From positions 1 through 64,000 of the forward strand of contig NZ_JACCJZ010000004.1 of the NCBI RefSeq assembly GCF_013425765.1: a DNA stretch of 64,000 nucleotides. Direction: 5' to 3'. The stretch is from Luteimonas deserti (GTDB taxonomy: Bacteria > Pseudomonadota > Gammaproteobacteria > Xanthomonadales > Xanthomonadaceae). The position numbers and the translations under genes were made by a program. Below, in pieces: positions 695-27,034 of the stretch (its first letter is position 1; every line of letters begins with the position of its first letter). The notes beneath the pieces are model-generated. The model saw only the letters and a program-made list of their open reading frames with translations, had not been told where the DNA came from and did no database searches.

Positions 695-811
695 CTTTCC
701 CCAAGGATGCATGTCAGCAGATTGCGTAGGACGCGTCAGCGGCGTCGATTTGTCAACCTCTTCACGCGTTTCCGCCGCATCCGGCCGCGACGACGTGAAT
801 ACGCGAGGCGC

Positions 812-2146: not shown

Positions 2147-2214
2147 GAGGCGATTGTGCCCAAACGCGCGAGCCCGCCGGTGGGCGGGCTCGCGGTGCAG
2201 CGCTGGTCCGGGCA

Positions 2215-3924: not shown

Positions 3925-3937
3925 CAGGCAGGCAGGC

Positions 3938-4354
3938 TCATGCGCCGGGCGACGCCGGCGAAAGGGGAATCGGGGAGTCGGGCATTGTGCCGTCCGGGGC
4001 CCTCAGCGGCAACGCACGCGCACGCCTGAGCGCTGCTTCGAAGGCGGCGCGCAACGCGGCAGCGTCCGCCGTGGCCGCGGCTGGACGGGCGACGACGACG
4101 TAGCTTCCGGGGGCGAGCTGGGGACGCATCAGGCGAAAGGCCTCGCGCAGGATGCGTTTGATGCGATTGCGGCCGACGGCCCGCTTGTCGACCTTGCGCG
4201 AGACGGCCAGCCCCATGCGGGCGGCACCGGGTTCGCGAAGCAGATGCACGGCGAGCAGCGGCGATGCGGTGCGCGCGGCGGCGGCGAAGATGCGGTCGAA
4301 ATCCGCCCGCGCACGCACCCGCGCCTGCCGCGGATAGCGGGCAGTCCGGTTCAC
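3938..4354 (-). CDS. rnpA: Ribonuclease P protein component
   Basis: RnpA is the small basic protein cofactor of RNase P, which removes 5' leaders from pre-tRNAs together with the catalytic RNA. The 138-residue sequence starts MNRTARYPRQARVRARADFD and contains the family signature KRAVGRNRIKRILREAFR (the RNR motif), plus the core GLAVSRKVDK strand. It follows rpmH by 57 bp in the usual rpmH-rnpA-yidC order and is probably co-transcribed from the rpmH promoter. The last 20 or so residues, rich in Pro and Ser, extend past the conserved core. Confidence 0.96.
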   Translation of the reverse strand: MNRTARYPRQARVRARADFDRIFAAAARTASPLLAVHLLREPGAARMGLAVSRKVDKRAVGRNRIKRILREAFRLMRPQLAPGSYVVVARPAAATADAAALRAAFEAALRRARALPLRAPDGTMPDSPIPLSPASPGA

Positions 4355-4411
4355 AGGACGTACGCGGGTCGGCCGGCGAGCAGGACGATGCAGCTCACCG
4401 GCCCGGCAGGA

Positions 4412-4552
4412 TCAGGCCGAGAGGACCTTGCGACCCTTGGCGCGGCGACGCGCGAGGATCTTGCGGCCGTCGGCCGTCGCCATGCGGGCACGGAAACCGT
4501 GGTCGCGCTTGCGCTTGAGGTTGCTGGGTTGGTAGGTGCGCTTGGTAGCCAT
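4412..4552 (-). CDS. rpmH: 50S ribosomal protein L34
   Basis: This 46-residue, strongly basic protein starts [20 protein letters not shown] and ends [13 protein letters not shown], an unmistakable L34 sequence of normal length. L34 is a structural protein of the large ribosomal subunit. It is first in a minus-strand operon with rnpA, yidC and mnmE, divergent from dnaA across the origin region. A good sigma-70-type promoter precedes it (separate entry). Confidence 0.98.
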
Positions 4553-4591
4553 GGTGAGCCCTTGGGGCGACGCGACAAAAAGGAACCGGAA

Positions 4592-4621
4592 ATTCTAGCG
4601 GCGCACGTGCGCCCCGGTCAA
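4592..4621 (-). promoter_or_regulatory. Putative sigma-70 promoter of rpmH-rnpA-yidC
   Basis: On the minus strand, TTGACC (4621-4616) is separated by 18 bases from TAGAAT (4597-4592), about 40 bp upstream of the rpmH start. Both hexamers differ from consensus by one base. This is the best housekeeping promoter in the window and would drive the ribosomal protein and RNase P operon. Confidence 0.7.
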
Positions 4622-4758
4622 GCCGGAGTGACGGTGGGCACGGCGGGATGCGGGTCTTCCCGGTCCGGCCACGCAGGGCAGCATGATAGGCTGCCTGCCC
4701 TTCTTCCGGCACCGCTGCGCACCCTGCGCGGCCGTGCCCGCTTTTGTCGAAAACCCCG

Positions 4759-6093
4759 ATGACGGATGCCTGGCCCCGCTGCCTCCAACGCCTCGAAGCC
4801 GAGTTTCCGGCCGAGGATGTCCATACCTGGCTCAAGCCCCTGCAGGCGCGCGGCGATGCCCACAGCACCGTGCTGTATGCGCCCAATGCCTTCGTTCGCG
4901 ACGAGGTCCAGGCGCGCTACATGCCCCGCATCCGCGAACTGCTCGAACATTTCGCCGGCACCGCGGATGTGAGCCTCCAGGTCGGCTCGCTGCCCCGGGT
5001 GCCGGCGCCAGTCCCGTCCGCGTCCGGCGAGCTGCGCTCCACGACGACGGCCACGCCGATCGAAGCCTTCGCCGGAAACATGGACAGCCACTACACCTTC
5101 GACAACTTCGTCGAAGGCCGCAGCAACCAGATGGGCCGCGCCGCCGCCTGGCAGGCCGCGCTCAAGCCCGGCGACCGGGCCCACAACCCGCTGCTGCTCT
5201 ACGGCGGCACGGGCCTGGGCAAGACCCACCTGATGTTCGCCGCCGGAAACGCGATGCGGCAGGCCAATCCCCGTGCACGCGTGCTGTACCTGCGTTCGGA
5301 GGAGTTCTACAGCGCGTTCTTCCGCTCGATCCAGGAGAAGACCTCGGACCAGTTCAAGCGCCAGTTCCGCCAGATCGACGCGCTGCTGATCGACGACATC
5401 CAGTTCTTCGCCGGCAAGGACCGCACCCAGGAAGAGTTCTTCCACACCTTCAATACGCTGTTCGACAGCAAGCAGCAGATCATCATGACCTGCGACCGCT
5501 ACCCGCGCGAAGTGGACGGCCTGGAGCCGCGCCTGAAGTCGCGCCTGGCCTGGGGCCTGTCGGTGGCGATCGATCCGCCCGATTTCGAAACCCGCGCGGC
5601 CATCGTGCTGGCCAAGGCCGCCGAGCGCGGGACCCAGGTGCCGGACGACGTCGCGTTCCTGCTGGCCAAGAAGATGCATTCGAACGTGCGCGATCTCGAG
5701 GGCGCGCTCAACACGCTGGCCGCACGCGCCAATTTCATGGGCCGCGCGATCACCGTCGAGTTCGCCCAGGAGACGCTGCGCGACCTGCTGCGTGCCCAGC
5801 AGCAGGCGATCAGCATGTCCAACATCCAGAAGGTCGTGGCCGACTACTACGGCCTGCAGATCAAGGACCTCCTCTCCAAGCGCCGTACGCGCTCGCTGGC
5901 GCGCCCGCGCCAAGTGGCCATGGCGCTGTCCAAGGAACTCACCGAGCACAGCCTTCCGGAGATCGGCGAGGCCTTCGCCGGACGCGACCACACGACGGTG
6001 CTGCATGCGTGTCGGCAGATCCGGACCCTGATCGAAAGCGACGGCAAACTGCGCGAGGATTGGGACAAGCTCATCCGCAAGCTCAGCGAGTAA
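4759..6093 (+). CDS. dnaA: Chromosomal replication initiator protein DnaA
   Basis: DnaA binds 9-mer boxes at oriC, oligomerises with ATP and melts the origin. The 444-residue protein has an N-terminal DnaB-interaction domain ([16 protein letters not shown]), a short linker and a AAA+ core with Walker [10 protein letters not shown] and Walker B LLIDDIQF. The C-terminal box-binding helix-turn-helix carries the signature [15 protein letters not shown] chose ATG 4759 because it gives the Xanthomonadaceae N-terminus; an in-frame TTG at 4744 would add five residues. It is divergent from rpmH and is followed by oriC and dnaN. Confidence 0.98.
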
Positions 6094-6347
6094 GCTGCGC
6101 ACGGGCGGGCCGTGGACAAAACCGGGACGGCAGGTGCACAGGGTGTGGACAAGTCGAGGGGCCTGAACTTGTCCACAGGTTCATCCCCTGCTCCCGGGTC
6201 TGCTGTCCACCGGGTTTTAAGGTCCAGAAAAGCTCGCAGAATCAAGGGGTTGGATGAGATATCACCCGATTCCGACCTCACCCAGCACCACCAGATTTAG
6301 ATTTATATCCTTTCGTTAAAAGCACGGACCAAGGGGATAACACCGAC
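6094..6347 (+). other. Replication origin oriC (DnaA boxes plus AT-rich unwinding element)
   Basis: The dnaA-dnaN gap holds several matches to the DnaA box TTATCCACA or its complement. These are GTGGACAAA at 6112-6120, TGTGGACAA at 6144-6152, TTGTCCACA at 6169-6177 and the weaker CTGTCCACC at 6203-6211. Boxes two and three face each other across 16 bp. Downstream, about 6293-6320 is markedly AT-rich (TTTAGATTTATATCC followed by TTCGTTAAAA), unlike the surrounding 65-70 percent GC sequence, and fits a DNA unwinding element. Position between dnaA and dnaN agrees with origins in this family. The promoter of dnaN must also lie here. Confidence 0.88.
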
Positions 6348-7448
6348 ATGCGTTTCAGTCTGCAACGCGAAACTCTGCTGAAGCCGCTGGCTCAGGTCGT
6401 CAATGTCGTCGAGCGTCGGCAGACCCTGCCCGTGCTTGCCAACCTGCTGGTGCAGGTGACAGATGGGCAGCTGTCGCTGACCGGTACCGATCTCGAAGTG
6501 GAGATGGTCTCGCGTCGGGCGGTCGAGGAAGCCCAGGATGGTGAGACCACGATTCCGGCGCGCAAGCTGTTCGACATCGTCCGTGCGCTGCCGGACGGCA
6601 GCAAGGTTGCGATCTCGCAGGCAGGCGACAAGATCACCGTGCAGGCGGGCCGCAGCCGCTTCACCCTGGCGAGCCTGCCCGCGGGCGACTTCCCTTCGGT
6701 CGACGAGGTCGAGGCGACCGAGACGATCGCGGTGCCCGAGGCCGCGCTGAAGGAGCTGATCGAGCGCACGGCGTTCGCGATGGCGCAGCAGGACGTGCGG
6801 TATTACCTCAACGGCCTGCTGTTCGACCTGGGCGATACCCGGTTGCGCTGTGTGGCCACCGACGGTCACCGCCTGGCGCTGTGCGAGACCACCCTGGACA
6901 CGGCGGTCCAGACCAAGCGTCAGATCATCCTGCCGCGCAAGGGCGTCACCGAGCTGCAGCGCCTGCTCGAAGGCGGCGACAAGACGCTCGAGCTCGAGAT
7001 CGGCCGCAACCATCTGCGGGTCAAGCGCGACGATGTGACCTTCACCAGCAAGCTCATCGACGGCCGGTTCCCCGACTACGAGGCAGTGATCCCGATCGGC
7101 GCCGATCGCGAGGTGACGATCGACCGCGAGTTGCTCCGTGCCGCCTTGCAGCGCGTGGCGATTCTGTCGAACGAGAAGTACCGGGGCGTCCGGATCGAGG
7201 TCTCGCCCGGCATGCTGCGCATCAATGCACACAATCCCGAGCAGGAAGAAGCCCAGGAAGAAGTCGAGGCCGACACGAAGGTCGATGAGCTGGCAGTAGG
7301 GTTCAACGTGAACTACCTGCTCGACGCCCTGACCGCGTTGCGTGGCGAGAACGTGGTCCTGAAGCTGCGCGATGCGAACTCGTCCGCTCTGGTGCGTGAG
7401 GCGACCGACGAGCGCAGTCGACATGTCGTCATGCCGCTGCGCCTCTGA
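6348..7448 (+). CDS. dnaN: DNA polymerase III subunit beta (sliding clamp)
   Basis: The beta clamp is a ring-shaped homodimer that tethers DNA polymerase III and other repair proteins to DNA. The 366-residue sequence has normal length and starts MRFSLQRETLLKPLAQVVNV. It shows the three-fold repeated clamp architecture, including VRYYLNGLLFDL, VATDGHRLAL and the C-terminal RHVVMPLRL that helps form the partner-binding pocket. It lies directly downstream of oriC and 87 bp before recF, in the standard dnaA-dnaN-recF-gyrB order. Confidence 0.98.
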   Translation: MRFSLQRETLLKPLAQVVNVVERRQTLPVLANLLVQVTDGQLSLTGTDLEVEMVSRRAVEEAQDGETTIPARKLFDIVRALPDGSKVAISQAGDKITVQAGRSRFTLASLPAGDFPSVDEVEATETIAVPEAALKELIERTAFAMAQQDVRYYLNGLLFDLGDTRLRCVATDGHRLALCETTLDTAVQTKRQIILPRKGVTELQRLLEGGDKTLELEIGRNHLRVKRDDVTFTSKLIDGRFPDYEAVIPIGADREVTIDRELLRAALQRVAILSNEKYRGVRIEVSPGMLRINAHNPEQEEAQEEVEADTKVDELAVGFNVNYLLDALTALRGENVVLKLRDANSSALVREATDERSRHVVMPLRL

Positions 7449-7470
7449 CCCCGGCAGACGCGCCTAATAC

Positions 7471-7484
7471 GTTTCACGTGGAAC
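7471..7484 (+). promoter_or_regulatory. parS-type ParB-binding site 1 (one mismatch)
   Basis: GTTTCACGTGGAAC lies between dnaN and recF. It differs by one base from the GTTCCACGTGGAAC core repeated three more times in the next 1.2 kb. This is the known gammaproteobacterial parS consensus recognised by the chromosome-partitioning protein ParB. Confidence 0.7.
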
Positions 7485-7486
7485 AT

Positions 7487-7508
7487 GACGCCCGGTTCGC
7501 CGGGCGTC
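7487..7508 (+). terminator. Strong hairpin after dnaN (possible terminator or processing site)
   Basis: GACGCCCGG, loop TTCG, CCGGGCGTC: a perfect 9-bp stem with a stable UUCG tetraloop, directly behind parS site 1 and 28 bp before the recF start. Only a pyrimidine-rich stretch follows rather than a true T-run, so it may attenuate rather than end transcription. Confidence 0.45.
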
Positions 7509-7535
7509 GTCCGTTTCAACTCTCTTTGGACAGTC

Positions 7536-8651
7536 GTGCGCCTGACCCGTCTCGATCTCCGCAATCTGCGCAACCTGCAGGACGTCTTGCTGGTGCCCGG
7601 CGCCGGCGTCAATCTCCTGATCGGCGACAACGGTGCGGGGAAGACCAGCGTCCTCGAAGGCCTGCACCTGATGGCCTACGGACGCAGTTTTCGCGGGCGC
7701 GTGCGCGACGGGCTCGTGCGGCGGGGGGCCGAGGCGCTCGAGGTGTATGCCGAGTGGGTCGAGGCCAGCGGAGGCGATGACCTGCGCGAGCGCCGCGCGG
7801 GCCTTCGACACAGCGGACAGGCGTGGTCGGGTCGCCTGGACGGCCAAGATGTCGCGCAACTCGGCGATCTGTGCGCCGCGCTGAAGGTGGTCACGGTCGA
7901 GCCGGGCAGTCACGCCCTTGTTTCGGGGAGCAGCGAGATCCGCAGGCGGTTCCTGGATTGGGGGCTGTTCCACGTGGAACACGGTTATCTGCCCCAATGG
8001 CGGCGCTACGCGCGCGCGCTGAAACAGCGGAATGCCCTGCTCAAGGTCGGGGGTGCCAACGGTCAGCTCGACGCCTGGGACCAGGAGCTCGCCGATGCCG
8101 CAACACCCCTCGATCATCGACGGGATGCGTATCTCGGCCGCCTGCAGAGTTCGTTGCGCATCGTTGCGTCACGGATCGCACCCGGGCTGGTCGCGCCCGA
8201 GCTGGAGTTCATCCCGGGCTGGCGCCGCAGCGACCTGTCGTTTGCCGATGCCCTTCTCGTCGCCCGGGAGCGCGACCGCACCGCGGGCTACACGAGCGTC
8301 GGCCCCCATCGCGCCGATTGGCGGCTCCGGTTCGAAGGCGGCATCGAACAATCGCTGCTGTCGCGGGGGCAGGCCAAGCAGGCGGCACTGTGTTGCCTCA
8401 TGGCGCAGGCGCTCGATTGCGCAAGCGAGCAGGCCGGTCACTGGCCTGTCGTCGCGCTGGACGATCTCGCCTCCGAGCTCGATCGGCACCATCAAGCCGA
8501 GATTCTCGACTACTTGCGGGCCGGAGATGCGCAGGTATTCATTACCGGGACCGAGATCCCCGCGCACTGGTCCGCGGAGCTTCGCCGGCAGGCGCACATG
8601 TTCCACGTGGAACACGGCGTCGTATCGCGTCTCAGTAAGACCTCAGGCTGA
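7536..8651 (+). CDS. recF: DNA replication and repair protein RecF
   Basis: RecF is an SMC-like ATPase that, with RecO and RecR, loads RecA at single-strand gaps. The 371-residue product has Walker A GDNGAGKTS near the N-terminus, the ABC signature region LLSRGQAKQ and Walker B VVALDDLASELD. I chose GTG 7536 (VRLTRLDLRNLRNL) because it gives the family N-terminus; an ATG at 7485 would add 17 unconserved residues. Two parS palindromes lie inside the gene and are translated as the odd motif FHVEH, near residue 145 and near residue 356 shortly before the C-terminus. The coding sequence thus carries a second, DNA-level function. Confidence 0.95.
   Translation: MRLTRLDLRNLRNLQDVLLVPGAGVNLLIGDNGAGKTSVLEGLHLMAYGRSFRGRVRDGLVRRGAEALEVYAEWVEASGGDDLRERRAGLRHSGQAWSGRLDGQDVAQLGDLCAALKVVTVEPGSHALVSGSSEIRRRFLDWGLFHVEHGYLPQWRRYARALKQRNALLKVGGANGQLDAWDQELADAATPLDHRRDAYLGRLQSSLRIVASRIAPGLVAPELEFIPGWRRSDLSFADALLVARERDRTAGYTSVGPHRADWRLRFEGGIEQSLLSRGQAKQAALCCLMAQALDCASEQAGHWPVVALDDLASELDRHHQAEILDYLRAGDAQVFITGTEIPAHWSAELRRQAHMFHVEHGVVSRLSKTSG
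7966..7981 (+). promoter_or_regulatory. parS site 2 (perfect 16-bp palindrome inside recF)
   Basis: TGTTCCACGTGGAACA is a perfect palindrome matching the parS consensus. In the recF frame it encodes LFHVEH. Confidence 0.85.
8599..8614 (+). promoter_or_regulatory. parS site 3 (perfect 16-bp palindrome near the recF 3' end)
   Basis: A second exact copy of TGTTCCACGTGGAACA, encoding MFHVEH in recF. It lies 618 bp from site 2. Confidence 0.85.
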
Positions 8652-8662
8652 ACGCATCGCCG

Positions 8663-8678
8663 TGTTCCACGTGGAACG
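8663..8678 (+). promoter_or_regulatory. parS site 4 (recF-gyrB intergenic)
   Basis: TGTTCCACGTGGAACG matches the 14-bp core exactly with one change at the outer edge. It lies 49 bp after site 3 and just past the recF stop, upstream of gyrB. Confidence 0.82.
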
Positions 8679-8741
8679 ATGCGGACATCGGACACTGCGA
8701 CGAGGCGACAACTTCCCGGAGGCGATATCGCCGCCCCGTAA

Positions 8742-11330
<2,589 letters not shown>

Positions 11331-11349
11331 AGCACGGTGATGGCCGGGT

Positions 11350-11364
11350 CCCGTCATTGACGGG
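11350..11364 (+). terminator. Weak hairpin after gyrB
   Basis: CCCGTC-ATT-GACGGG, a 6-bp stem 19 bp after the gyrB stop with no T-run. It may contribute to termination. Confidence 0.25.
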
Positions 11365-11418
11365 CCGTTAATCCACCGCGCACTACAACGGTCGTCCTTG
11401 AACAGGGGACGACCGCCC

Positions 11419-12228
11419 ATGAAAGCGCTGACCGCCGCACTCGCCACCGCGCTCACGCTCGCCGGCTGCGCCACCACCACGTCGCCCACGGGTCGCACGC
11501 AGTACGTGGGCGCGGTGTCGCAAGCCCAACTCAACCAGATGGGCGAGCAGGCCTTCGCCGAAACCAAGAGCAAGATGCGCGCCTCGCCCGACGCCCGGCA
11601 GCAGGCCTACGTACGCTGCCTCGTCACCGACATCGTCCGCGAACTGCCTGGCGACTGGCAGCGGCTGAACTGGGAGTCGATCGTGTTCGTGGACGACAAC
11701 CCCAACGCCTTCGCGCTGCCCGGCGGCAAGGTCGGCGTGCATACCGGCATCCTCAACGTCGCCAAGACCCAGGACCAGCTCGCGGCGGTGATCGCGCACG
11801 AGATCGGCCACGTCTACGCCAACCATCACGACGAGCGCATCACCCGGCAGATGGGCGCGCAGGGCGCACTGGGCGTCGCCGGCGCACTGCTCGGCTCGCG
11901 ATACGGTGAAGGCGCGCAACAGTCCACGAACCAGCTCGGTGGTGCGGCGCTGCAGGCGACCTTCCTGCTGCCGGGCACGCGCATGCAGGAAACCGAGGCC
12001 GACGTCGTCGGCCAGGAACTCATGGCCAAGGCGGGCTTCGATCCGCGCGCGGCCGTCGGCCTGTGGCAGAACATGATCGCCGCGAGCGGCGGAAACCGCC
12101 CGCCGCAGTGGCTGTCGACCCATCCCAATCCCGAAAACCGCATCAGCGAACTGCAGGCACGTGCGACCTCGCTCGTGCCCACGTTCGATCAGGCGCGCGC
12201 GGCCGGGCGTCGACCGAACTGCGGCTGA
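11419..12228 (+). CDS. M48 family metallopeptidase, lipoprotein (LoiP/BepA-like)
   Basis: This is a zinc protease probably anchored to the outer membrane and acting in envelope protein quality control. The 269-residue sequence starts with a lipoprotein signal whose lipobox LAGC puts the lipidated Cys at residue 17. The zinc motif HEIGH is at residues 127-131 (AVIAHEIGHVYANHH), and a downstream Glu in ETEADVVGQELMAKAG is the likely third ligand. A preceding segment with NAFALPGGKVGVHTGIL is typical of the family. I chose ATG 11419, with AGGGGA 11 bp upstream; an upstream TTG at 11398 would lengthen the signal peptide unnaturally. It is probably transcribed alone. Confidence 0.9.
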   Translation: MKALTAALATALTLAGCATTTSPTGRTQYVGAVSQAQLNQMGEQAFAETKSKMRASPDARQQAYVRCLVTDIVRELPGDWQRLNWESIVFVDDNPNAFALPGGKVGVHTGILNVAKTQDQLAAVIAHEIGHVYANHHDERITRQMGAQGALGVAGALLGSRYGEGAQQSTNQLGGAALQATFLLPGTRMQETEADVVGQELMAKAGFDPRAAVGLWQNMIAASGGNRPPQWLSTHPNPENRISELQARATSLVPTFDQARAAGRRPNCG

Positions 12229-12344
12229 TCCGCGGCCGCATCGCACGCGCTGTGTAACCCGCGGCCGCATCCGCTCGTCCATAATCGCCGTATCCAGTCC
12301 ATGCCGGCACCGCGCTGCGGTGGCGCCGTCCACGAGGTGATCCG

Positions 12345-13601
12345 ATGTCGAAGTCCCGTCTCTCCAACTCCCTGCTGACCGGCGCCATCGCGACCGCGCT
12401 CTTCGCGTTCGCCGCGCCGGTCACCGTGCACGCGCAGGACGAAGGCAGCGACCGCGGCGATCGCAGCGAGCGCGCCGCGCGCGGCGCGCGTTCGAGCGAC
12501 CGTACCGAGCAGCGCGCCGAGCGCCGCAGCTCGCGTCAGGCGCAGGCACCGAAGGAGGCGCTGTATCCGAACGCGACTCGCGCCGCACCGGGGGTCAGCG
12601 CGAGCCAGCGTCTGGCCAAGCAGCTCAATGCCCTGTCCGAAGCCAATACCGCGCAGGATGCCGGGAAGGGTCTGCCACTCGCGGAGGAAATTCTCGCCAA
12701 CGAGCGCGCCAACGAGTACGACCGGTCGATCGCCGCACTGCTCGCCGGCCAGCTGCTCCTCAACGACGACAACGAGCGCGCGATCACCTACATGCAGCAG
12801 GCGATCGACCTCGGTGGCCTCGACAACGACAACCACTTCCAGGCCATGCTCATCATTGCCCAGCTGCGTGCCCAGGAGCAGGACTACGCCGCTGCGTTGA
12901 CGATGATGGAGCGCTTTCTCGCCGAGTCGGGCTCCACCGATCCGAAGGACCTGGCGCTCAAGGGCAACCTGCTCTATCGCCTGGAGCGTTATCCCGAGGC
13001 CATCGCCACCCTGAAGCCGCTGGTGGACGCGGGCGGCGAGGTCGATCCGCAGTGGACGCAGCTGCTGATGGGTGCGTACGCCGAGTCGGGCAACACCGCC
13101 GAGGCCACGCGTCTGGCCGAGCAGGTCGCCCAGGCCACGCCGAGCGACAAGCGCTCGCAGATCAACCTCGCGGTGTCGTACCTGCAGACCGATCAGAACG
13201 ACAAGGCCATCGAGGTCTTCGAGCGTCTGCGCGCGGCCGGCCAGCTCACGGAAGAGAGCGAATACCGCAACCTGTACGCCCTGTACCTCAACGGCGACAG
13301 CAAGGAACGCGAAGCGATCGCGGTGATCAACGACGGTCTCGAGAAGAACGTGCTCAAGCCTGACTACCGCACGATGTCCGCGCTCGGTCAGGCGTATTAC
13401 TTCTCCGAGCAGATTCCGCAGGCGATCGATGCGTGGGGCAAGGCCGCGCCGCTCGCGGAGAACGGCGAAACCTATCTCAACCTGGCGCGCGTGTTGCACC
13501 AGGAAGGGCGCAGCGCGGAAGCGAAAGACGCCGCGCGCCAGGCCATCGCCAAGGGCCTGCGTTCCAACACGGATGCTGAACGCATCATCTCGTCACGCTA
13601 A
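12345..13601 (+). CDS. TPR-repeat protein with signal peptide, upstream of tonB
   Basis: The 418-residue protein has a signal peptide (residues 1-30, cleavage after VHA), then an acidic/Arg-rich low-complexity stretch (QDEGSDRGDRSERAARG). Most of the rest is repeated helical pairs of the tetratricopeptide type, for example AAALTMMERFLAESGSTDPK, ALKGNLLYRLERYPEAIATL and TYLNLARVLHQEGRSAEAKD. It is likely a periplasmic scaffold. Its place before tonB-exbB-exbD-exbD on the same strand suggests a link to the TonB system, but a 130-bp gap with its own promoter-like sequence separates them. The exact role is unknown. Confidence 0.85.
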   Translation: MSKSRLSNSLLTGAIATALFAFAAPVTVHAQDEGSDRGDRSERAARGARSSDRTEQRAERRSSRQAQAPKEALYPNATRAAPGVSASQRLAKQLNALSEANTAQDAGKGLPLAEEILANERANEYDRSIAALLAGQLLLNDDNERAITYMQQAIDLGGLDNDNHFQAMLIIAQLRAQEQDYAAALTMMERFLAESGSTDPKDLALKGNLLYRLERYPEAIATLKPLVDAGGEVDPQWTQLLMGAYAESGNTAEATRLAEQVAQATPSDKRSQINLAVSYLQTDQNDKAIEVFERLRAAGQLTEESEYRNLYALYLNGDSKEREAIAVINDGLEKNVLKPDYRTMSALGQAYYFSEQIPQAIDAWGKAAPLAENGETYLNLARVLHQEGRSAEAKDAARQAIAKGLRSNTDAERIISSR

Positions 13602-19500: not shown

Positions 19501-19583
19501 GGGGCACTCGGACACGGCGCACGACGCGCCACGCACAGGGTAGCGGCGCCGCGGCGCGGGTGCCGTCGCGACATGTCACTCGA

Positions 19584-19607
19584 GGGTGTCACAGCGCGGT
19601 GACACCC
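19584..19607 (+). promoter_or_regulatory. Palindrome upstream of the Fap-like operon: enhancer (UAS) candidate
   Basis: GGGTGTCAC-AGCGCG-GTGACACCC, perfect 9-bp arms around a 6-bp spacer. An extra half-like TGTCAC sits just upstream at about 19575-19580. It lies about 130-155 bp upstream of the sigma-54 -24/-12 element, the usual distance for an activator site that acts by DNA looping. The likely binder is the convergent sigma-54 activator at the far end of the locus (inference). Confidence 0.65.
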
Positions 19608-19707
19608 CGCCACGGCGCACGCCGATGCGGCTGCACCCGCCGCCGGCACGTGGGGATGCCACATCAGTGCGACGCCGGCCAGCGGGAAACAGCCGGGCCA
19701 CCGATCC

Positions 19708-19720
19708 CAAACAATTGATT
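19708..19720 (+). promoter_or_regulatory. IHF-binding consensus between UAS and sigma-54 promoter
   Basis: CAAACAATTGATT reads on the other strand as AATCAA-TTGT-TTG, an exact match to the IHF consensus WATCAANNNNTTR. It sits in a short AT-rich island (about 19705-19737) that stands out from the GC-rich surroundings. It lies between the palindrome and the -24 element, where IHF bends DNA at many sigma-54 promoters. Confidence 0.6.
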
Positions 19721-19738
19721 CAAAAGGAAAATAACGAC

Positions 19739-19753
19739 TGGCACGGCGTCTGC
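19739..19753 (+). promoter_or_regulatory. Sigma-54 (RpoN) promoter of the Fap-like operon
   Basis: TGGCACG-GCGT-CTGC matches the -24/-12 consensus TGGCACG-N4-TTGC at all but one position, with the invariant GG and GC exactly 10 bp apart. It lies 34 bp before the first gene of the operon. Confidence 0.8.
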
Positions 19754-19786
19754 GTAATCAGGTCCAACACGTCACAGGGGACCGCC

Positions 19787-20302
19787 ATGCGCCAGCCAAT
19801 CCAGACCGTCGTCGGCCTGCTCGGTCTAGGGGTCCTCTGCGCGGCACCGATGGTCCATGCAGCCGGCGCGCGGACCGGAGTCGAGCCCCGCCACGGCGAG
19901 ATGGTGCTGCTGCGTGAGGTCGGCGCGCGGCATGCCGTGCGCCCGGCGCCGCCCGGCATCGCACTGATCGCCGACCCCACGCCCAACCGGCAGCTCCTTC
20001 CCGTGCTCGCCGATGGCGAGCTCAGCGACGCCGATTTCCGCGGCCTCGACACCGGGCCCCAGACCGGAGGCGCCGCGCCGAGCGGCGCGGGCCTGGCCGC
20101 GCCGATGGTGCGGACACTGGGCAGTGCGGGCCTCGGCGGCCCGACGCGCGACGCAGGCGGACTGCAGGCCACGGGCACCCTTGCAGGTGCGGGCGGGCCC
20201 CTGGGCGCGGTGGGTCAGGCCACCCGCGGTATCGCCGGCCACGTCACCGGCGCACTGTCGCAACTGCCTCTCGGTCAGCCGGCCGGCGGGCGCGGACCGT
20301 GA
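19787..20302 (+). CDS. Small secreted protein, first gene of the Fap-like operon (FapA position)
   Basis: A 171-residue protein with a signal peptide (MRQPIQTVVGLLGLGVLCAA, cleavage after VHA near residue 26) and no transmembrane segment after that. The middle has an acidic stretch (LLPVLADGELSDADFRGLD). The C-terminal third is Gly/Ala/Leu-rich and low in complexity. I do not recognise a domain. The start at ATG 19787 follows CAGGGGACC, and its stop overlaps the next start (GTGA), so the two genes are translationally coupled. In the Pseudomonas fap operon this position holds FapA, a periplasmic chaperone of the fibril subunits. By position only, this could do the same job. Confidence 0.7.
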   Translation: MRQPIQTVVGLLGLGVLCAAPMVHAAGARTGVEPRHGEMVLLREVGARHAVRPAPPGIALIADPTPNRQLLPVLADGELSDADFRGLDTGPQTGGAAPSGAGLAAPMVRTLGSAGLGGPTRDAGGLQATGTLAGAGGPLGAVGQATRGIAGHVTGALSQLPLGQPAGGRGP

Positions 20303-20913
20303 GCCGCCGCCTCGCCCTGCTGCTGGCCGGACTGATGGCCGGATCGGCCTCGGCCGACGAGTACGGCGCGATGCTCGGCTATCTGACCGAGTCGCGTGTC
20401 GACGGTCAGGCCTTCGCCGGTGCGTCGGGCGCGATCGCACTCAATCTCGCCTCGGGCGATCTCAACCAGCAGGTCAACCTGCGCGCGATCTCGACCGGCC
20501 CGCGGGCGCTCGCCCACGCCGACGTGCGCCAGGCGCGCAGTCGCGACGCGGCCGACGCTCCGGACGTGGCCGCAGCGGTCATCGCGGACGGCGCCTTCGC
20601 CGGCGCATCCGGACTCGCGGGCATCAATCAGGCCAGTGGCAGCGGCAACTCCGCGTTCAACGCGGTGGCCGTGGCCCTGGCGCAACAGGGCATACGCGAA
20701 AGCGACGACGACGGCACGTTGGCGTCCGCGTTCGCGTCGGCGGGGCAACAGCACGGTTTCGAACGGGGGGGCACGACGGCGGGTCGTCGCGTGGCATCCG
20801 TCGAGTCCACTGCGCTGCAGGGCTTCGAAGGTGTGTTGCAGCTCAACCAGGTCGCGGGCGCGGGCAACGACACCGGCAATGCATTGTCGATGTCGCTGGC
20901 AAGCGGTCCGTGA
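20299..20913 (+). CDS. Minor amyloid-like repeat protein (FapB position)
   Basis: A 204-residue secreted protein: signal peptide 1-19 (cleavage after SASA), then three spaced repeat units, at about 39-64 (IALNLASGDLNQQVNLRAI), 100-126 (AGINQASGSGNSAFNAVAVA) and 175-200 (LQLNQVAGAGNDTGNALSMS). The shared pattern is N-x-A-S/A-G-x-x-N-x-x-x-N followed by alternating small and hydrophobic residues, as in Fap amyloid repeats. Divergent linkers separate the units. The GTG start overlaps the upstream stop. In Pseudomonas, FapB is the nucleator or minor subunit. The C-terminal CxxC known from Pseudomonas FapB is absent; the protein has no Cys. Confidence 0.75.
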   Translation: MSRRLALLLAGLMAGSASADEYGAMLGYLTESRVDGQAFAGASGAIALNLASGDLNQQVNLRAISTGPRALAHADVRQARSRDAADAPDVAAAVIADGAFAGASGLAGINQASGSGNSAFNAVAVALAQQGIRESDDDGTLASAFASAGQQHGFERGGTTAGRRVASVESTALQGFEGVLQLNQVAGAGNDTGNALSMSLASGP

Positions 20914-20964
20914 CCCGGCACTTCAACGGGTCATCCACGTGAATCACAAGAGAGAGAGAACGAT

Positions 20965-22533
20965 ATGAAGACCATGAAATGGACCGTCCTGGCGCTGGCC
21001 GTCAGCGCCGCCGCCGCAAGCACGGCGCACGCGCAGGAGGTCGACTGGCAGATCGTCGACTACGACATCACCATCGACGACGCCCGCAACTACGAGACCA
21101 ACGTCAGCAACACGACCACCAATCTGGAGCTCAATGCGACCGCCGATCTCGCGCTGACCGCGACCGCGGACCTGTCCCTGCGCCAGAGCCTCGACCAGAG
21201 CCTGACCGAGTCGACCGAGCGCCGGATCACCGAAACGATCGACCGCAGCCTGACCGACACCCAGACCGCCAGCGACAATTTCGACCGGAGCGTGAGCATC
21301 GACGAGGCGCATCGCCTGCGCACCAACCAGGTGTACGAGACCATCGACCGCAGCGAGAACGTCAGCTCGGACATCCGCCGCGAGCGCAACGAGCACGGCG
21401 TGTCGGTGAACCTCGAGAAGAGCCTGTCGCTGAGCTCGGACATCGCGTTCACCGGCGATCCCACGCTCAGCGGCGAGATCGAGATCGATTCGGCCGCGAT
21501 CGCGGTGGTCGACAACCGCCAGTCGGTCAGCGGCAATCTGGGTCTCAACGAGGCGCTGGAGAACGACGCCGCCATCGACGGCGATGTCGCTTCCGGCGCG
21601 TCGGGCAACCTGCTGTTCAACGTCGCCGCGGGCGACAACAACGTGCAGGACAACGCCGCGGCCCTGTCGGCGGCGGATGCGGGCTTCGCCTTCGGCCTGG
21701 CCGATGCCGAGGTCTTCGTGAACCAGGCGGGCAGCGGCAACGTCACGATGAACGAGGGCGTCGCCAACAGCGCGGACCTCGCCGGCAGCGCGTTCTCGGC
21801 GGCCACCGGCAACATCGGCGTCAACGTCGCCTCGGGCAACAACAACGCACAGAAGAACGCGATGGCCGCCTCGGTCGCCACGGCCGCCTATGCGCAGGCG
21901 AGCGTGAGCTCCAACCAGGCCTCGTCCGGCAACCTGACCAGCAATGCGGGCAGCTACGAGTCCTTCACCGACACGGTGGACGTCTCGCTCAGCGGCACGA
22001 TGAGCGGCGGTTCGATCGCGATGGGCTTCGGCGCCTACGAGGGTTCGACCAGCGGCGAATCGACCAGCCGCGGCAACGCCTACCAGCAGTCGAACTTCTA
22101 CGCCGACATGTGGGAAGGCCAGGATCACCCGGCCGGCCCGGTGATCGGCCATGCCGACTTCGACGGTGCGTCCCAGGGCGCGGTGCGCAACCCCTACCGC
22201 GGTTCGGACGAGCACGGACCCATCGGTGGCCTGGCCTTCGACACCGATTCCGAGGGCAGCTACACGGGCAGCGAATCCGGCGGCCTGGCCTTCATGGAGC
22301 TCGGCTACAGCGAGCTGGAAGCGGCATTGAGCGGCGAAGTGACGACCACGCGCTGGGTCGCGGTGGCGGCCACCAACAGCGCCGGCCTGTCCGGCAGCGC
22401 CTTCAGCAACGCGTCGGGCAACATCGGCGTCAACGTGGCGGCAGGCACCGGCAACCTCCAGGCCAACAGCCTGGCGATGGCGGTGGCCCAGCCGGGCGCA
22501 GCGGCACCGCCCCCGGGCGGCGGCGGCGAGTAA
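20965..22533 (+). CDS. Large secreted Gly/Asn/Ala repeat protein, likely fibril subunit (FapC position)
   Basis: A 522-residue secreted protein: signal peptide 1-23, then an acidic Thr/Ser/Asp-rich region (about 24-185) with regularly repeated LSLRQSLDQSL and ITETIDRSLTD patterns. Three imperfect amyloid-type units follow at about 214-235 (GNLLFNVAAGDNNVQDN), 282-303 (GNIGVNVASGNNNAQKN) and 485-507 (GNIGVNVAAGTGNLQAN). Half units occur at 190, 258 and 322. A Gly/Ser/aromatic linker (330-460) separates units two and three, and the tail is Pro/Gly-rich. The mature protein contains no Cys and is acidic. Spaced N/G/A/Q repeats with linkers of different length fit the FapC major subunit. Amyloid formation is inferred, not shown. 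Confidence 0.78.
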   Translation: MKTMKWTVLALAVSAAAASTAHAQEVDWQIVDYDITIDDARNYETNVSNTTTNLELNATADLALTATADLSLRQSLDQSLTESTERRITETIDRSLTDTQTASDNFDRSVSIDEAHRLRTNQVYETIDRSENVSSDIRRERNEHGVSVNLEKSLSLSSDIAFTGDPTLSGEIEIDSAAIAVVDNRQSVSGNLGLNEALENDAAIDGDVASGASGNLLFNVAAGDNNVQDNAAALSAADAGFAFGLADAEVFVNQAGSGNVTMNEGVANSADLAGSAFSAATGNIGVNVASGNNNAQKNAMAASVATAAYAQASVSSNQASSGNLTSNAGSYESFTDTVDVSLSGTMSGGSIAMGFGAYEGSTSGESTSRGNAYQQSNFYADMWEGQDHPAGPVIGHADFDGASQGAVRNPYRGSDEHGPIGGLAFDTDSEGSYTGSESGGLAFMELGYSELEAALSGEVTTTRWVAVAATNSAGLSGSAFSNASGNIGVNVAAGTGNLQANSLAMAVAQPGAAAPPPGGGGE

Positions 22534-22550
22534 GCGCCACGAGGTGTGAA

Positions 22551-22571
22551 CCCGGCCCCTTCCCGGCCGGG
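22551..22571 (+). other. First hairpin between the fibril-subunit and peptidase genes
   Basis: CCCGGCC-CCTTCCC-GGCCGGG, a 7-bp perfect stem 17 bp after the stop of the large repeat protein. It stands next to a stronger hairpin (next entry). Confidence 0.5.
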
Positions 22572-22581
22572 CTCTCCCGGA

Positions 22582-22612
22582 GCCCCGCGCCACCTGCCCC
22601 GTGGCGCGGGGC
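22582..22612 (+). terminator. Strong hairpin after the fibril-subunit gene (attenuator or mRNA-stabilising element)
   Basis: GCCCCGCGCCAC-CTGCCCC-GTGGCGCGGGGC, a perfect 12-bp GC-rich stem with a 7-base loop, followed by CTCCTTCC rather than a T-run. It sits in the 101-bp gap before the C39 peptidase gene. Such a structure would protect upstream mRNA ends and reduce read-through, giving more structural subunit than export machinery (inference). Confidence 0.55.
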
Positions 22613-22634
22613 CTCCTTCCCCACGAGGTCGACG

Positions 22635-23336
22635 ATGATCCGTCTTCTTGCGGCGGTGACGCTGGTCCTGCTGGTGCTGGTGGTCGCCGCCCGCGCGCGC
22701 GCGGCCGACGTGCAGGTGCACGGCATTCTGCCCAACGGAGCGGTCATGCCGGTGCGGGTGGAAAGCATGCGCGAGGCACGCTTCCGCCACATCGTGCGTC
22801 AGCACACCGATTACAGCTGCGGCGCGGCCGCACTGGCCACGGTGCTCAAGTACGCCTATCGGCTGGACGTCGACGAGGCCACGGTCATCGAAGGCATGCT
22901 CGGGCTGGCCGATGTCGAGGTGGTGCAGGCCCGCGGGTTCTCGTTGCTCGACATCAAGCGCTACGTCGAATCGCTGGGCATGCGCGGACGCGGCTACCGC
23001 ATCGAGGAAGCTCGCCTGCGGGCATTGCGGGTGCCCGGGCTGGTGCTGATGGACGTGCGCGGCTTCCGCCACTTCGTCGTGCTCAAGCAGGTGGTCGGCG
23101 ACATCGTCGAGGTTGCGGATCCGATCCTGGGCAACCGCAGCGTGCCGATGGCCGAGTTTCTCGACTCGTGGCCGTCCCGCGCCATTTTCATCGTCATAGC
23201 GAGTGATTTCGACCGCGACAGCGTGCTGCTGCAGCCGGTCGCGCGTCCGAGCGCAAAGGCGCTCTTCGCGCGCCAGGGACCGCTGACCGATGCCGAGCTG
23301 CTCGACTTCGGCTTCAGCCATGCGGATCTGTTCTGA
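22635..23336 (+). CDS. C39 family peptidase of the Fap-like operon (FapD position)
   Basis: A 233-residue papain-fold protease with a signal peptide (residues 1-23). The catalytic triad can be read directly: Cys62 in HTDYSCGAAALATVLKYAY, His146 in VRGFRHFVVLKQV and Asp162 in VEVADPILGN. These are the three blocks of peptidase family C39, here as a stand-alone periplasmic enzyme without transporter domains. In Pseudomonas the fourth fap gene encodes such a protease, needed for fibril export. The start at ATG 22635 has an ACGAGG ribosome site. It is in the same operon as the repeat proteins, behind the two hairpins. Confidence 0.88.
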   Translation: MIRLLAAVTLVLLVLVVAARARAADVQVHGILPNGAVMPVRVESMREARFRHIVRQHTDYSCGAAALATVLKYAYRLDVDEATVIEGMLGLADVEVVQARGFSLLDIKRYVESLGMRGRGYRIEEARLRALRVPGLVLMDVRGFRHFVVLKQVVGDIVEVADPILGNRSVPMAEFLDSWPSRAIFIVIASDFDRDSVLLQPVARPSAKALFARQGPLTDAELLDFGFSHADLF

Positions 23337-23349
23337 GACGAGGTGTCCG

Positions 23350-24105
23350 ATGTCCACATCCATTCAATGGCGCGTGATGCTGCTGCTGATCACCGCATTT
23401 CTCGCGGCTCCCGCGTGCGCGGAGGTCGACGCCGTCGCCAGGCCTGCCGCGCTCCAGGAGATTCCCGACGCCGAACTCGGCGCGATGCGTGGCCGCTACA
23501 TCGTGGGCGACGACCGCATCGCCTGGTTCGGCGTCACCATGGTGTCCGACTGGCTCACCGCCGGCGGACAGCGCCTGCAGGGCGCCATGACGATCGGCTT
23601 CGACCTGCGCGGTGCGCGCCCCGAGGTCAGCTTCCTGCCGAGTGTGACCATCACCGGTGTCGACACGGCGGCCGCGACGGGGACCGGAGAGGTCGACGGC
23701 AGCGGCCTGGCCAACGTCGGGGGACTGATGCAGGCGGTGCAGGTCGCCGGCGACGGCAACACCGCGCGCAATGCGCTGTCGCTGCGCGTGCGCGAAGGCG
23801 TGATCCCGGGACGAGCCGGCGGCGAGGCCGCAGCCAGTGCCGAGCTCCGGGTCGACGGTGCGCACGCACGCGCCGCGCTCGACGATGCAGGCGCTCGCGT
23901 GCTGCTGCAGGTGGCCGGACAGGGCGCGGTGGAGCAGTGGATCGACGCGCGTGCGATCGGCCAGAGCATCCGCCTGACCGGCGACGGGCACATGGCGGGC
24001 AACCGGTTGCAGCTCGATCTGGTCCGCCAGCGGGCGCCGGCCAGCCAGACCATTCACCAGAATCTCGTGCAGGCGATCGGCATGACCCGCGTCGGCGGAC
24101 TCTGA
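23350..24105 (+). CDS. Accessory secreted protein with repeat-like units (FapE position)
   Basis: A 251-residue protein with a signal peptide (cleavage near residue 24, after ACA). The N-terminal domain carries IPDAELGAMRGRYIVG and WFGVTMVSDWLTAGGQ. Its C-terminal half contains degenerate units related to those of the fibril proteins (VQVAGDGNTARNALSLRV about 130-147; IRLTGDGHMAGNRLQLDL about 207-224). That relation to the subunits and its position between C39 peptidase and outer-membrane protein match FapE, a minor fibril component or chaperone. It starts 13 bp after the peptidase stop. Confidence 0.72.
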   Translation: MSTSIQWRVMLLLITAFLAAPACAEVDAVARPAALQEIPDAELGAMRGRYIVGDDRIAWFGVTMVSDWLTAGGQRLQGAMTIGFDLRGARPEVSFLPSVTITGVDTAAATGTGEVDGSGLANVGGLMQAVQVAGDGNTARNALSLRVREGVIPGRAGGEAAASAELRVDGAHARAALDDAGARVLLQVAGQGAVEQWIDARAIGQSIRLTGDGHMAGNRLQLDLVRQRAPASQTIHQNLVQAIGMTRVGGL

Positions 24106-24143
24106 TCCACGCACATCACGCGTCGATGCGGGAGGGGGCAATC

Positions 24144-25505
24144 TTGAAATCGACAATCGCAGGCGCGCGGCGGCCATTGGCCATCGCGCTCGGGTTGACA
24201 TTGCTGGCACCGATGGCTGCCACCGCGCAGGAAGGCGCGGCGTTCACGGCCGAGGACCGGGCCCGGATGCAGCAATTGCTGCGCGAGCTGTCGGACCTCA
24301 AGCAGAGCTATGCACAGGAAGTGCGCCGGCTCCGCGAGCTCGACATGCAGATCCAGGCGCTGCAGGCACGCGTGGGCGGCGTGGCCGCGGCGGCGCCGCG
24401 CGAGGTGCCGCAACCCCTGGCCCACGCTCCTGCCGACAGGCAGCAGGATCAAGCGCCCGGCCCGGCCGGCACACCCCCGGCCGCGCGCCAGGACGAGGGC
24501 TACGCGAGCAGCGCCGAGGATGCGCAGCGCGCTCGGGAGGCCGAGTCGCGCAGCGTGGCCGACGTCAAGCAGCAGAGCACCGCGCTGTTCAACCGCCGGC
24601 TCACACTGGAGAACGGGCTGAGCTACAACCGCTACGACCGCAAGCAGGTCACGCTCAACGGCTTCCTTGCGCTGGATGCGATCTTCCTCGGCAACATCGC
24701 GATCGAGAACGTCGAATCCGACACCGTGAACTACAACTTCGCCGCACGCTGGGGCGTGAGTCCGCGCCTGAGCCTCAACCTCGACGTGCCCTACATCGCC
24801 CGCAAGACCGTCTACCAGAAGGGCGGCGCCGGCGGTGCGGCCGCGGCGATCGCGCAGGAACAGACCGACGGCGCGGGCCTGGGCGACATCAGCGCGAGTG
24901 CGAACTGGAAACTCTTCGGCGAACGCGGCGCCTGGCCGGAAACCGTGCTCAACGTCGGCGTCACCGCGCCCACCGGCCGTGAGCCCTACGGCATTCCGTG
25001 GCGCGTGCTCGAACGCGACGAGGACAACTTCATCCGGTTCGCGGTGCCCGAAGAACAGCCCACCGGCAACGGCCTGTGGCAGGCCACGGTCGGGCTGTCG
25101 GCGGTGAAGACCACGGATCCGGCCATCCTGTTCGGGAATGTCGGTTACGTGCATTCGTTCGCGCGGAACTTCGGCGATCTCGACAACAACCCGCTGACGG
25201 TCAATCCCGGCCGGGTGGCGCTGGGCGACGCGTTCTATTTCGGCGCGGGCCTGGCGTTCGCGTTCAACGAACGCACCAGCCTGAGCATCGCCTTCAGCGA
25301 CCGGCTCAGCGCACGTGCGCGCACCCGCTACGAGGGGGGCGACTGGGTCAAGCTCATCGGCAGCGATGCCAATGCCGCGACCATGAGCCTGGGTGTGACC
25401 CATGCGATGACGCCCAGTGCGACGTTCGTCGGGGTCCTCGGCATCGGCCTCACGCCCGACGCGCCGGATTTCAACCTGACGGTGAAGGTGCCCTACGCGC
25501 TGTGA
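24144..25505 (+). CDS. Coiled-coil plus beta-barrel outer-membrane protein, probable fibril-subunit exporter (FapF position)
   Basis: A 453-residue protein. After the signal peptide (cleavage near residue 29) comes a heptad-patterned helix at about 37-77 (ARMQQLLRELSDLKQSYAQE), then an Ala/Pro linker. From about 150 to the end the sequence alternates like an outer-membrane beta-barrel (LTLENGLSYNRYDRKQVTLN, ATVGLSAVKTTDPAILFGNV) and closes with FNLTVKVPYAL. This is the known layout of FapF, which uses an N-terminal coiled coil to gate a barrel through which subunits pass. I chose TTG 24144 because GGAGGG lies 8 bases upstream and it gives a normal signal peptide; ATG 24126 lacks a ribosome site. 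It is the last gene of the six-gene unit. Confidence 0.82.
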   Translation: MKSTIAGARRPLAIALGLTLLAPMAATAQEGAAFTAEDRARMQQLLRELSDLKQSYAQEVRRLRELDMQIQALQARVGGVAAAAPREVPQPLAHAPADRQQDQAPGPAGTPPAARQDEGYASSAEDAQRAREAESRSVADVKQQSTALFNRRLTLENGLSYNRYDRKQVTLNGFLALDAIFLGNIAIENVESDTVNYNFAARWGVSPRLSLNLDVPYIARKTVYQKGGAGGAAAAIAQEQTDGAGLGDISASANWKLFGERGAWPETVLNVGVTAPTGREPYGIPWRVLERDEDNFIRFAVPEEQPTGNGLWQATVGLSAVKTTDPAILFGNVGYVHSFARNFGDLDNNPLTVNPGRVALGDAFYFGAGLAFAFNERTSLSIAFSDRLSARARTRYEGGDWVKLIGSDANAATMSLGVTHAMTPSATFVGVLGIGLTPDAPDFNLTVKVPYAL

Positions 25506-25538
25506 CGCCTGCCCTGCGCGATCGCGAGTGGCGCGCGC

Positions 25539-26864
25539 TCACTCCCAGCGGCAGGCGTCGAGCGAGACGCCGTGCTTGCGGCACAGGCGGTAGACGGTCA
25601 TTCGCGAAATGCGCAGTCGCTGGGCGCAGGCGCTGACGTTGCCGCCGGTCGCACGCAGCGCGTCGAGCAGCGCGTCGCGATCGGTGCGGTCGCGGTGGTC
25701 GTCGAGAGCCACCACGCGCGCGCTGGTCGGACCGAGCTGGAGATCCTCGGGCTCGATCAGCGCATGCTCGGCCACCACAGCCGCCCGACGGACGCGATTG
25801 AGCAGCTCGCGCACATTGCCGGGCCAGGCGTGGCGGCGCAGGCACAGCCGCGCCGCGGCACTGAAGCCGCGCGCCTGCACCGGATGCGTGGCGCGGAACG
25901 CGTCGAGGAACTCGCGCGCCAGCAGCTCGATGTCGTCCCCGCGTTCGCGCAGCGGCGGCAAGCGCAGGCGCAGCACGTCGAGGCGGTAGTACAGGTCGGC
26001 CCGGAAGCGGCCCTGCGCGATCGCTGCCTCGAGATCGACATGGGTGGCGGCGAGTACCCGCACGTCGACACGGATCGCATGGTGGCTGCCCACCCGCTCG
26101 AGGGTGCCTTCCTGCAGGACACGCAGCAGGTTGGTCTGCGCCTCCAGCGGGAGGTCGCCGATCTCGTCCAGGAACACGGTGCCGCCGTCGGCGGATTCGA
26201 ACAGACCGACGCGCCGCGCCGTGGCTCCAGTAAAGGCACCACGCTCGTGACCGAACAATTCCGACTGCACCAGCGTCGGCGCGATGGCGCCGCAGTTCAT
26301 CGCCACGAACGGCCGCGCGCGACGCGCGGAGAGCGCGTGCAGGGCGTGCGCCGCAAGCTCCTTGCCGGTTCCCGATTCGCCGGTGATCAGCACCGGCAGC
26401 TCGACCTGGGCGTAACGATGCAGCATCGCGCGCACCCCGAGGATGGCGGGACTGCGACCGCCGATGCTGTCGATGTCGCGTTGCGGCCTGGCGACCAGCG
26501 CGGCGAGTGCGCTTACGAGGCGTTCGGCATCCAGCGGGGCGGCCAGCACGCGCCCGCACTGGGCAATCACCGCCTGCTCGAGCGGATCCTGCGACGCGTC
26601 GTCCGTGTCGTCGACGACCGCCAGCGACGGCAGGTCAGCGTGTTCAGCGAGCGTGCGCTGCATCTCCAGCAGGTGCGCGGAATCGGCCCCGCGCAGGTCG
26701 ACCACCAGCACGACCAGATCCGCGCCGCGCATGCCGACCTGATGCGCCGGCCCGGCCACCCGCAGATGCCAGCCGCCTGCAGCCAGCTGGGCCTGCTCGC
26801 GCCGGGTGGGTGCGCCGAACCAGATCGCGCAGCGCTGCGCCGTCGGCGCGCTCACCGACGCCAT
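25539..26864 (-). CDS. Sigma-54-dependent transcriptional activator with degenerate receiver domain
   Basis: A 441-residue enhancer-binding protein. The N-terminal 125 residues look like a receiver fold but lack the acidic pair at the end of strand one and the conserved Lys, so phosphorylation is unlikely; VpsR- and FleQ-type activators are similar. The AAA+ domain has Walker [10 protein letters not shown] (161-169), the sigma-54-contact loop GAFTGA (209-214) and Walker B FLDEIGD (231-237). The Fis-type helix-turn-helix is at the C-terminus ([20 protein letters not shown]). It is convergent with the Fap-like operon, whose stop is 33 bp away. The operon has a sigma-54 promoter, so this is its likely dedicated activator. 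Start ATG 26864 is chosen by domain content. Confidence 0.92.
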
Positions 26865-27034
26865 GCCGGGTGCCCGGTCGACGTCGCCATGCCGGTCCGC
26901 TCCGGCCGATCCTCCACGGACATGCCCTCTCCCTGCCCCCCGGTGTCGGCCTGCTATACGCAGGAAGCGACCCGCACCGGCCATCACGCGCCCGCGTCGC
27001 AGCGACTGAGACCGGCGGCTGCGAGACTCGCGCG

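Follow-up and report, generated by a model that had tools for sequence, protein, structure and literature searches.

The fap operon of Luteimonas deserti

The window analyzed here is a 64,000 nt stretch of the Luteimonas deserti genome (assembly GCF_013425765.1, contig NZ_JACCJZ010000004.1, positions 1–64,000). Positions 19787–25505 of its + strand carry six co-directional open reading frames that form a complete fapABCDEF set, the gene set of the functional amyloid (Fap) system of Pseudomonas. The frames were taken from an open reading frame listing with start codons chosen by us. The genes and the best matches of their products to NCBIfam models are as follows.

19787–20302, + strand: fapA, 171 aa, small secreted protein, a chaperone in NCBIfam; NF058617, E-value 5.8e-5, 23.5 bits (cut-off 110)
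20299–20913, + strand: fapB, 204 aa, GTG start, minor amyloid subunit and putative nucleator; NF058557, E-value 1.5e-25
20965–22533, + strand: fapC, 522 aa, major amyloid subunit, no cysteine; NF058558, E-value 3.5e-53 over residues 171–507
22635–23336, + strand: fapD, 233 aa, C39 peptidase with Cys62, His146 and Asp162; NF058616, E-value 1.6e-76
23350–24105, + strand: fapE, 251 aa, secreted fibre-associated protein; NF058559, E-value 2.6e-30
24126–25505, + strand: fapF, 459 aa, outer-membrane transporter with helices at 42–83 and 130–156 and a beta-barrel; NF058560, E-value 8.7e-109

The fapA and fapB frames overlap by 4 nt, and the genome contains one FapC locus and one FapF locus. For all six proteins the top NCBIfam match is the protein's own Fap model, and the matches run in the order A-B-C-D-E-F, thus the resemblance exceeds chance. 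The initial annotation of this DNA, made from the sequence alone, had placed six co-directional genes here in fapABCDEF order and proposed a comparison with FapA–F profiles; the order is as it stated, and all six profiles find their proteins with E-values from 5.8e-5 to 8.7e-109. Pfam gives no match at gathering score for any of the six except Peptidase_C39 and by itself would miss the operon. A Fap cluster has been defined by FapBC repeats together with at least three further fap genes within 5 kb (PMC12392863, section 2.1), and the window contains this combination when scored with the NCBIfam models in place of the authors' HMMs.

The same gene set is found in relatives. In a family sample of 198 genomes, 50 have a strong FapF match (>200 bits), one each, and 26 more have a weak FapF match alone. 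From this sample 45 of the 50 loci with a strong FapF were taken, together with 15 loci termed class 2. A set of 80 named loci comprises the best 80 of 344 relatives, chosen by similarity to a long FapC of the window type, hence "long" is a selection criterion in this set; the GHxDxD motif described below was not among the search patterns. All six fap genes are detected in 42 of the 45 family-sample loci and 79 of the 80 named loci, the gaps being mostly at contig ends. The two sets (L034–L093 and L094–L173) overlap in strains and their counts are therefore not independent.

The locus very probably encodes the whole Fap functional-amyloid system as it is known from Pseudomonas. This identification is based on the six profile matches, the matches of FapC and FapF to solved sequences, the predicted folds, and the presence of the same gene set in relatives.

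FapC repeats and predicted fold

FapC displays three imperfect repeats with a GN-x-G-x-N ... GN-x-Q-x-N core. The repeat layers are at approximate positions 176–237, 244–305, and 309–328 plus 470–508, and the AlphaFold2 model has five strands in each of these three layers. FapC is described as having three layers with five short strands per layer (PMC12392863, section 2.6). Residues 214–235, 282–303 and 485–507, which the initial annotation had singled out, each correspond to the conserved portion of one Fap repeat. A sequence search of the PDB matches FapC with the solved FapC chains 9nqd (E-value 1.4e-13) and 9u4u, and a Foldseek search with the model gives 9u4u as the sole match at an E-value of 0.001 or lower, with a probability of 1.00. 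The N-terminal region, at about positions 24–140, is variable (mean 2.03 bits per column).

FapD and FapF

FapD has Cys62, His146 and Asp162 at exactly the positions that had been claimed. These three residues and Gln56 are each identical in all 137 aligned FapD sequences of fap loci, window included.

FapF matches the protein of crystal structure 5o65 over residues 141–457 (E-value 5.9e-77). The FapF model (mean pLDDT 70.5) has helices at positions 42–83 and 130–156 followed by a barrel, and its first Foldseek match is again 5o65 (2.8 Å, TM(target) 0.90). The sequence match and the single-chain model together support a coiled coil plus an outer-membrane beta-barrel. The initial annotation expected a barrel of 12 strands; by our count the model has 13 strands of at least nine residues. 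Two outcomes had been named as contrary to a Fap identity, a lack of similarity to FapD, FapF and FapC and a repeat fold that is not cross-beta. Both were looked at and neither was found, the fold being judged from the strand pattern of the low-confidence FapC model.

Promoter-like element and linked regulator

Two further features adjoin the operon, a sigma-54 promoter-like element upstream and the gene of an enhancer-binding protein downstream.

19739–19753, + strand: sigma-54 –24/–12 element TGGCACGGCGTCTGC, 10 of 11 specified positions, beginning 48 nt before the fapA ATG
25539–26864, – strand: sigma-54 enhancer-binding protein, 441 aa from the ATG at 26864; PF00158, E-value 4.6e-68; FleQ structure 8p53, E-value 1.1e-76

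The element was scored against the sigma-54 consensus. Among 123 fapA upstream regions (the window plus the long- and short-FapC lineages described below, with overlapping strains), 109 score at least 10 of 11, 12 score 9 and two score 8, while only 28 of 2440 order-1 Markov control sequences reach 10 of 11. No sigma-70 promoter was found (0.3 expected), and terminators are no more numerous than in shuffled sequences. The genome has two rpoN genes, both on contig C19.

The enhancer-binding protein gene is directly downstream of fapF and convergent to it, and FleQ is the closest solved structure. A homologue is present at 42 of the 45 family-sample loci, 76 of the 80 named loci (the contigs of the other four end there) and 10 of 12 loci from other gammaproteobacteria; in many Stenotrophomonas loci the regulator is instead upstream and divergent. 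In P. fluorescens PF07 the fap genes are under RpoN/BrfA control, with BrfA as activator (PMC9207406, PMC13101488), and BrfA senses c-di-GMP (PMC13101488). The window regulator is BrfA-like in place, size and family, the three likenesses on which orthology would rest. By analogy it probably senses c-di-GMP, and the on-switch for fap here is likely of the RpoN/BrfA type.

Points against the identification

Several observations weigh against a Fap identity. None of the six proteins reaches its NCBI equivalog cut-off, and the FapA match is the weakest of the six (E-value 5.8e-5, 23.5 bits). Confidence in the FapC model is low (mean pLDDT 58.5, pTM 0.43), and the model superposes poorly on 9u4u (rmsd 20.2 Å, TM(query) 0.16). 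The C-terminal CXXC, described as conserved in FapC (PMC6173800), is absent from the window FapC, which has no cysteine. The profile of the enhancer-binding protein is unspecific: a second copy beside L040/L115 and the class-2 locus L082 score 520–563 bits as well.

The FapC equivalog cut-off is passed in only 5 of the 16 FapC-bearing genomes in a class sample of 369 genomes. The NCBI cut-offs thus cover a narrower group than the Fap system, and a score below them places the group of the window operon beyond the named core and does not mark it as another kind of system. Because of the low confidence and the poor superposition, the support from the FapC model is limited to the local layer pattern. 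As the CXXC is missing in most other FapC sampled, it is not taken as defining a Fap system.

A conserved insertion in the third FapC repeat

The third repeat of the window FapC is interrupted by a long segment.

21952–22365, + strand: FapC insertion, residues 330–467, within the third repeat; the GHxDxD motif is at 395–400

In the alignment with FapC of strain UK4, window residue 331 corresponds to UK4 residue 190 and window residue 470 to UK4 residue 199, i.e. 138 residues versus 8. By the model, the insertion would follow strand 2 of the third layer and precede its strand 3. In UK4 the stretch 186–197 is mapped as disordered, and the insertion site adjoins it (PMC12392863). The region corresponds to FapC linker 2, which has 35–259 residues in four Pseudomonas and is viewed as length-variable, flexible and stiffness-tuning (PMC12392863, section 3.3).

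The initial annotation spoke of large divergent linkers. This holds for the variable N-terminal region and does not hold for the insertion, which is well conserved among relatives: 44 columns reach at least 3.3 bits in 46 long FapC. GHxDxD is found in all 81 long FapC examined and in one of the 36 short FapC sequences from this bacterial family. It is also found at 10 of the 12 other gammaproteobacterial loci and in 2 of 15 FapC-like open reading frames of a phylum sample, and is absent from all five FapC of family f161, presumably Pseudomonadaceae (L211–L215, those examined first). A profile of the insertion matches 7 of 398 genomes, every match being within a FapC, and 20 of the 398 have a FapC. 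Within this sample the insertion is therefore confined to FapC, although not every FapC has it. It is present in long FapC of Xanthomonadales and of several other gammaproteobacterial families, and was not seen in the Pseudomonas-like FapC sampled.

AlphaFold draws the insertion as a long hairpin with a pLDDT of about 40–77; hairpin-like drawings are a known tendency of such predictions, of which PMC12392863 warns. No Pfam family was found for the insertion in member 1 of 14, and single members gave weak matches (Tudor_3, 0.0056; EF-hand_5, 0.0078). The best PDB match is an EF-hand protein with an E-value of 0.12. These weak EF-hand-like similarities are a lead that hints at calcium binding at most. 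Residues His388, His396, Asp398, Asp400, Gln404 and Asp426 are invariant, which suggests calcium or another divalent ion. Tentatively, and with the odds against it, the insertion may be a conserved module with a function of its own: each subunit would present one copy along the fibre, and this copy would bind a ligand or a metal ion and give the fibre regulated binding or cross-linking. If so, Fap fibres would come in decorated and bare forms. No published account of a conserved FapC insertion or of a Luteimonas Fap was found in the literature (figures and supplements were outside the search). A conserved insertion inside the third layer, as opposed to the published flexible linker, is a testable claim on a role at the fibre surface.

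Relatives and lineages

The FapF tree separates a long-FapC lineage (35 rows, support 97/92) from a short-FapC lineage (19 rows, 100/100); other gammaproteobacteria branch between the two. The rows include 13 of the 80 named loci, 5 of the 15 class-2 loci and 10 of the 12 other gammaproteobacterial loci; the window itself is not a row, and L065, whose contig lacks a fapC, is labelled short by default. The tree supports the placement of the nearest relatives of the window in the long-FapC lineage, apart from the short-FapC lineage of the same family. The FapC of Luteimonas sp. BLCC-B24 is 85% identical to that of the window in the best segment.

The short-FapC lineage (L057–L073, L088, L092, L093) has one to four tandem fapC genes, with at least two in 13 of 19 loci and four in L068. 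The two lineages also differ in their FapC C-termini. Long FapC (residues 509–522 in the window, and relatives) have a Gly-rich tail that closes in E or EQ, and short FapC end in a CXXC or a Pro/Cys tail. As FapD is in the double-glycine C39 peptidase group, the Gly-rich tail might be a substrate site.

Horizontal transfer of fap is described as minor in the 2013 survey (PMC3792158). That statement fits poorly with the two clearly separated fap lineages in one family, of which the first has a single long FapC and the second between one and four short fapC genes in tandem.

The initial annotation noted that the subunits have no cysteine, which is correct for FapB and FapC (FapA, FapD and FapE have one each), and took this, together with the linkers, as the mark of a possible separate branch. 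A new amyloid branch defined by cysteine-free subunits would agree with the lack of cysteine in 79 of the 81 long FapC and with the clade that the long-FapC loci form. It is nevertheless improbable. FapC without cysteine is also found in other families, i.e. at 6 of the 12 other gammaproteobacterial loci and in L213 of family f161, and a CXXC is present in only 3 of these 12 and in 4 of the 15 FapC-like open reading frames of the phylum sample. Within the same bacterial family 31 of 36 short FapC have the CXXC, and in the nearest other clade, f159, long FapC carry GHxDxD as well as CXXC. Since cysteine-free FapC are common outside the lineage and scattered over other families, cysteine absence was rejected as a branch marker. 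The proposal of a branch as such is in part upheld by the long-FapC clade of the FapF tree, but this clade includes Stenotrophomonas, which was in the 2013 survey.

A second alternative, that the operon was recently acquired or is decaying and is non-functional in this strain, takes its force from a patchy distribution in the genus: a strong FapF match occurs in 3 of the 8 other same-genus genomes of the family sample. In the remaining five (G028, G070, G123, G144 and G162) the cardiolipin-synthase-like and radical-SAM genes that flank the locus (compare window positions 19537–27010) adjoin each other in every case, with no fapC, fapD, fapF or regulator between them. Fap genes and regulator are thus jointly missing from a clean empty site, and in this respect the seven genes form a single unit. 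In the window, however, all six frames are open and the catalytic residues and promoter element are intact, and relative G194 has a FapC 85% and a FapD 90% identical to those of the window. This alternative is therefore considered very unlikely. A plasmid origin was rejected, as a tblastn search of PLSDB with FapC gave one record, a 4.9-Mb Aeromonas caviae sequence with 41% identity.

Hardly any credence is left for a Fil-like pilus or fibre system (FilB C39 peptidase, FilC channel) or another export system of FapD/FapF type: FapD does match pilus_FilB (5.9e-34) and FapF pilus_FilC (2.3e-20), and FapD/FapF-like pairs without fapA, fapB, fapC and fapE exist in the same family, but the Fap models give much stronger matches (1.6e-76 and 8.7e-109), FapB, FapC and FapE are present, and the FapF-like proteins of class 2 group in a clade of their own (100/100), so that a Fil-type system is refuted by the FapB, FapC and FapE matches and the better Fap scores.

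The class-2 loci (L074, positions 5845–10311, with L075–L087 and L089) contain FapD-like and FapF-like genes with no match to fapA, fapB, fapC or fapE. The two L074 proteins score 132.7 bits (FapD-like) and 166.9 bits (FapF-like). Next to their genes are those of a secreted protein of 434 aa, rich in Gly and Asn, and of two small proteins that carry an MRGG-like motif. Colocalised fapD and fapF homologues are described from five other phyla (PMC6173800). Two fap loci show other changes. In L173 (positions 56–12489, a contig of a Rhodanobacteraceae metagenome-assembled genome) a second fapD-E-F-regulator set is found directly upstream of a full fap operon. In L088 (positions 9156–10465, genome G166) fapF is represented by two overlapping open reading frames and may be broken or carry a sequencing error.

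Proposed mechanism

By analogy with the Pseudomonas system, a BrfA-like activator would act on sigma-54 RNA polymerase at the –24/–12 promoter, under the c-di-GMP control described for BrfA, and lead to transcription of fapABCDEF. FapA–F would be exported to the periplasm. FapD may process or escort substrates. FapB would nucleate and FapC polymerise into a Greek-key cross-beta fibre, each FapC contributing three stacked layers. The strain would thus be expected to produce fibres of amyloid nature, and these may hold the biofilm together, as the work on Pseudomonas suggests. In this lineage about 138 additional conserved residues are inserted in the third FapC layer and would protrude from the fibre core.

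Comparison with known systems

The window operon shares with Pseudomonas Fap (FapC 9u4u and 9nqd, FapF 5o65) its gene order, the six protein families, the C39 triad, the transporter with coiled coil and barrel, and the three FapC repeats, each predicted to form a layer of five strands. It differs in the length of FapC (522 aa versus 250 aa in 9u4u), in having about 138 residues at positions 331–470 where UK4 has 8, in the lack of a CXXC, in the variable N-terminal region and in scores below the equivalog cut-offs. In curli (csg), as in Fap, a functional bacterial amyloid is built from a nucleator and a major subunit with repeats, and an outer-membrane channel is part of the system. The curli proteins are unrelated, however, and no csg family is among the NCBIfam matches of the window.

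The RpoN/BrfA system of P. fluorescens PF07 (PMC9207406, PMC13101488) likewise has a –24/–12 element before fapA and a reverse enhancer-binding gene directly after fapF, and its brfA has the same open reading frame length as the window regulator, 1326 bp including the stop codon. Fap of Stenotrophomonas and other Xanthomonadales (PMC3792158; L094–L173) shares with the window, at the sequence level, the long FapC with the GHxDxD insertion, the operon and the regulator. The 2013 survey reported Fap with three repeats and variable linkers in Stenotrophomonas maltophilia and the order Xanthomonadales (PMC3792158). The system was later extended by 25 genera (PMC6173800), and 1172 Fap clusters have been surveyed in GTDB (PMC12392863). 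The Fap system is therefore already known, including in Xanthomonadales, and the window adds Luteimonas-like genomes to the list.

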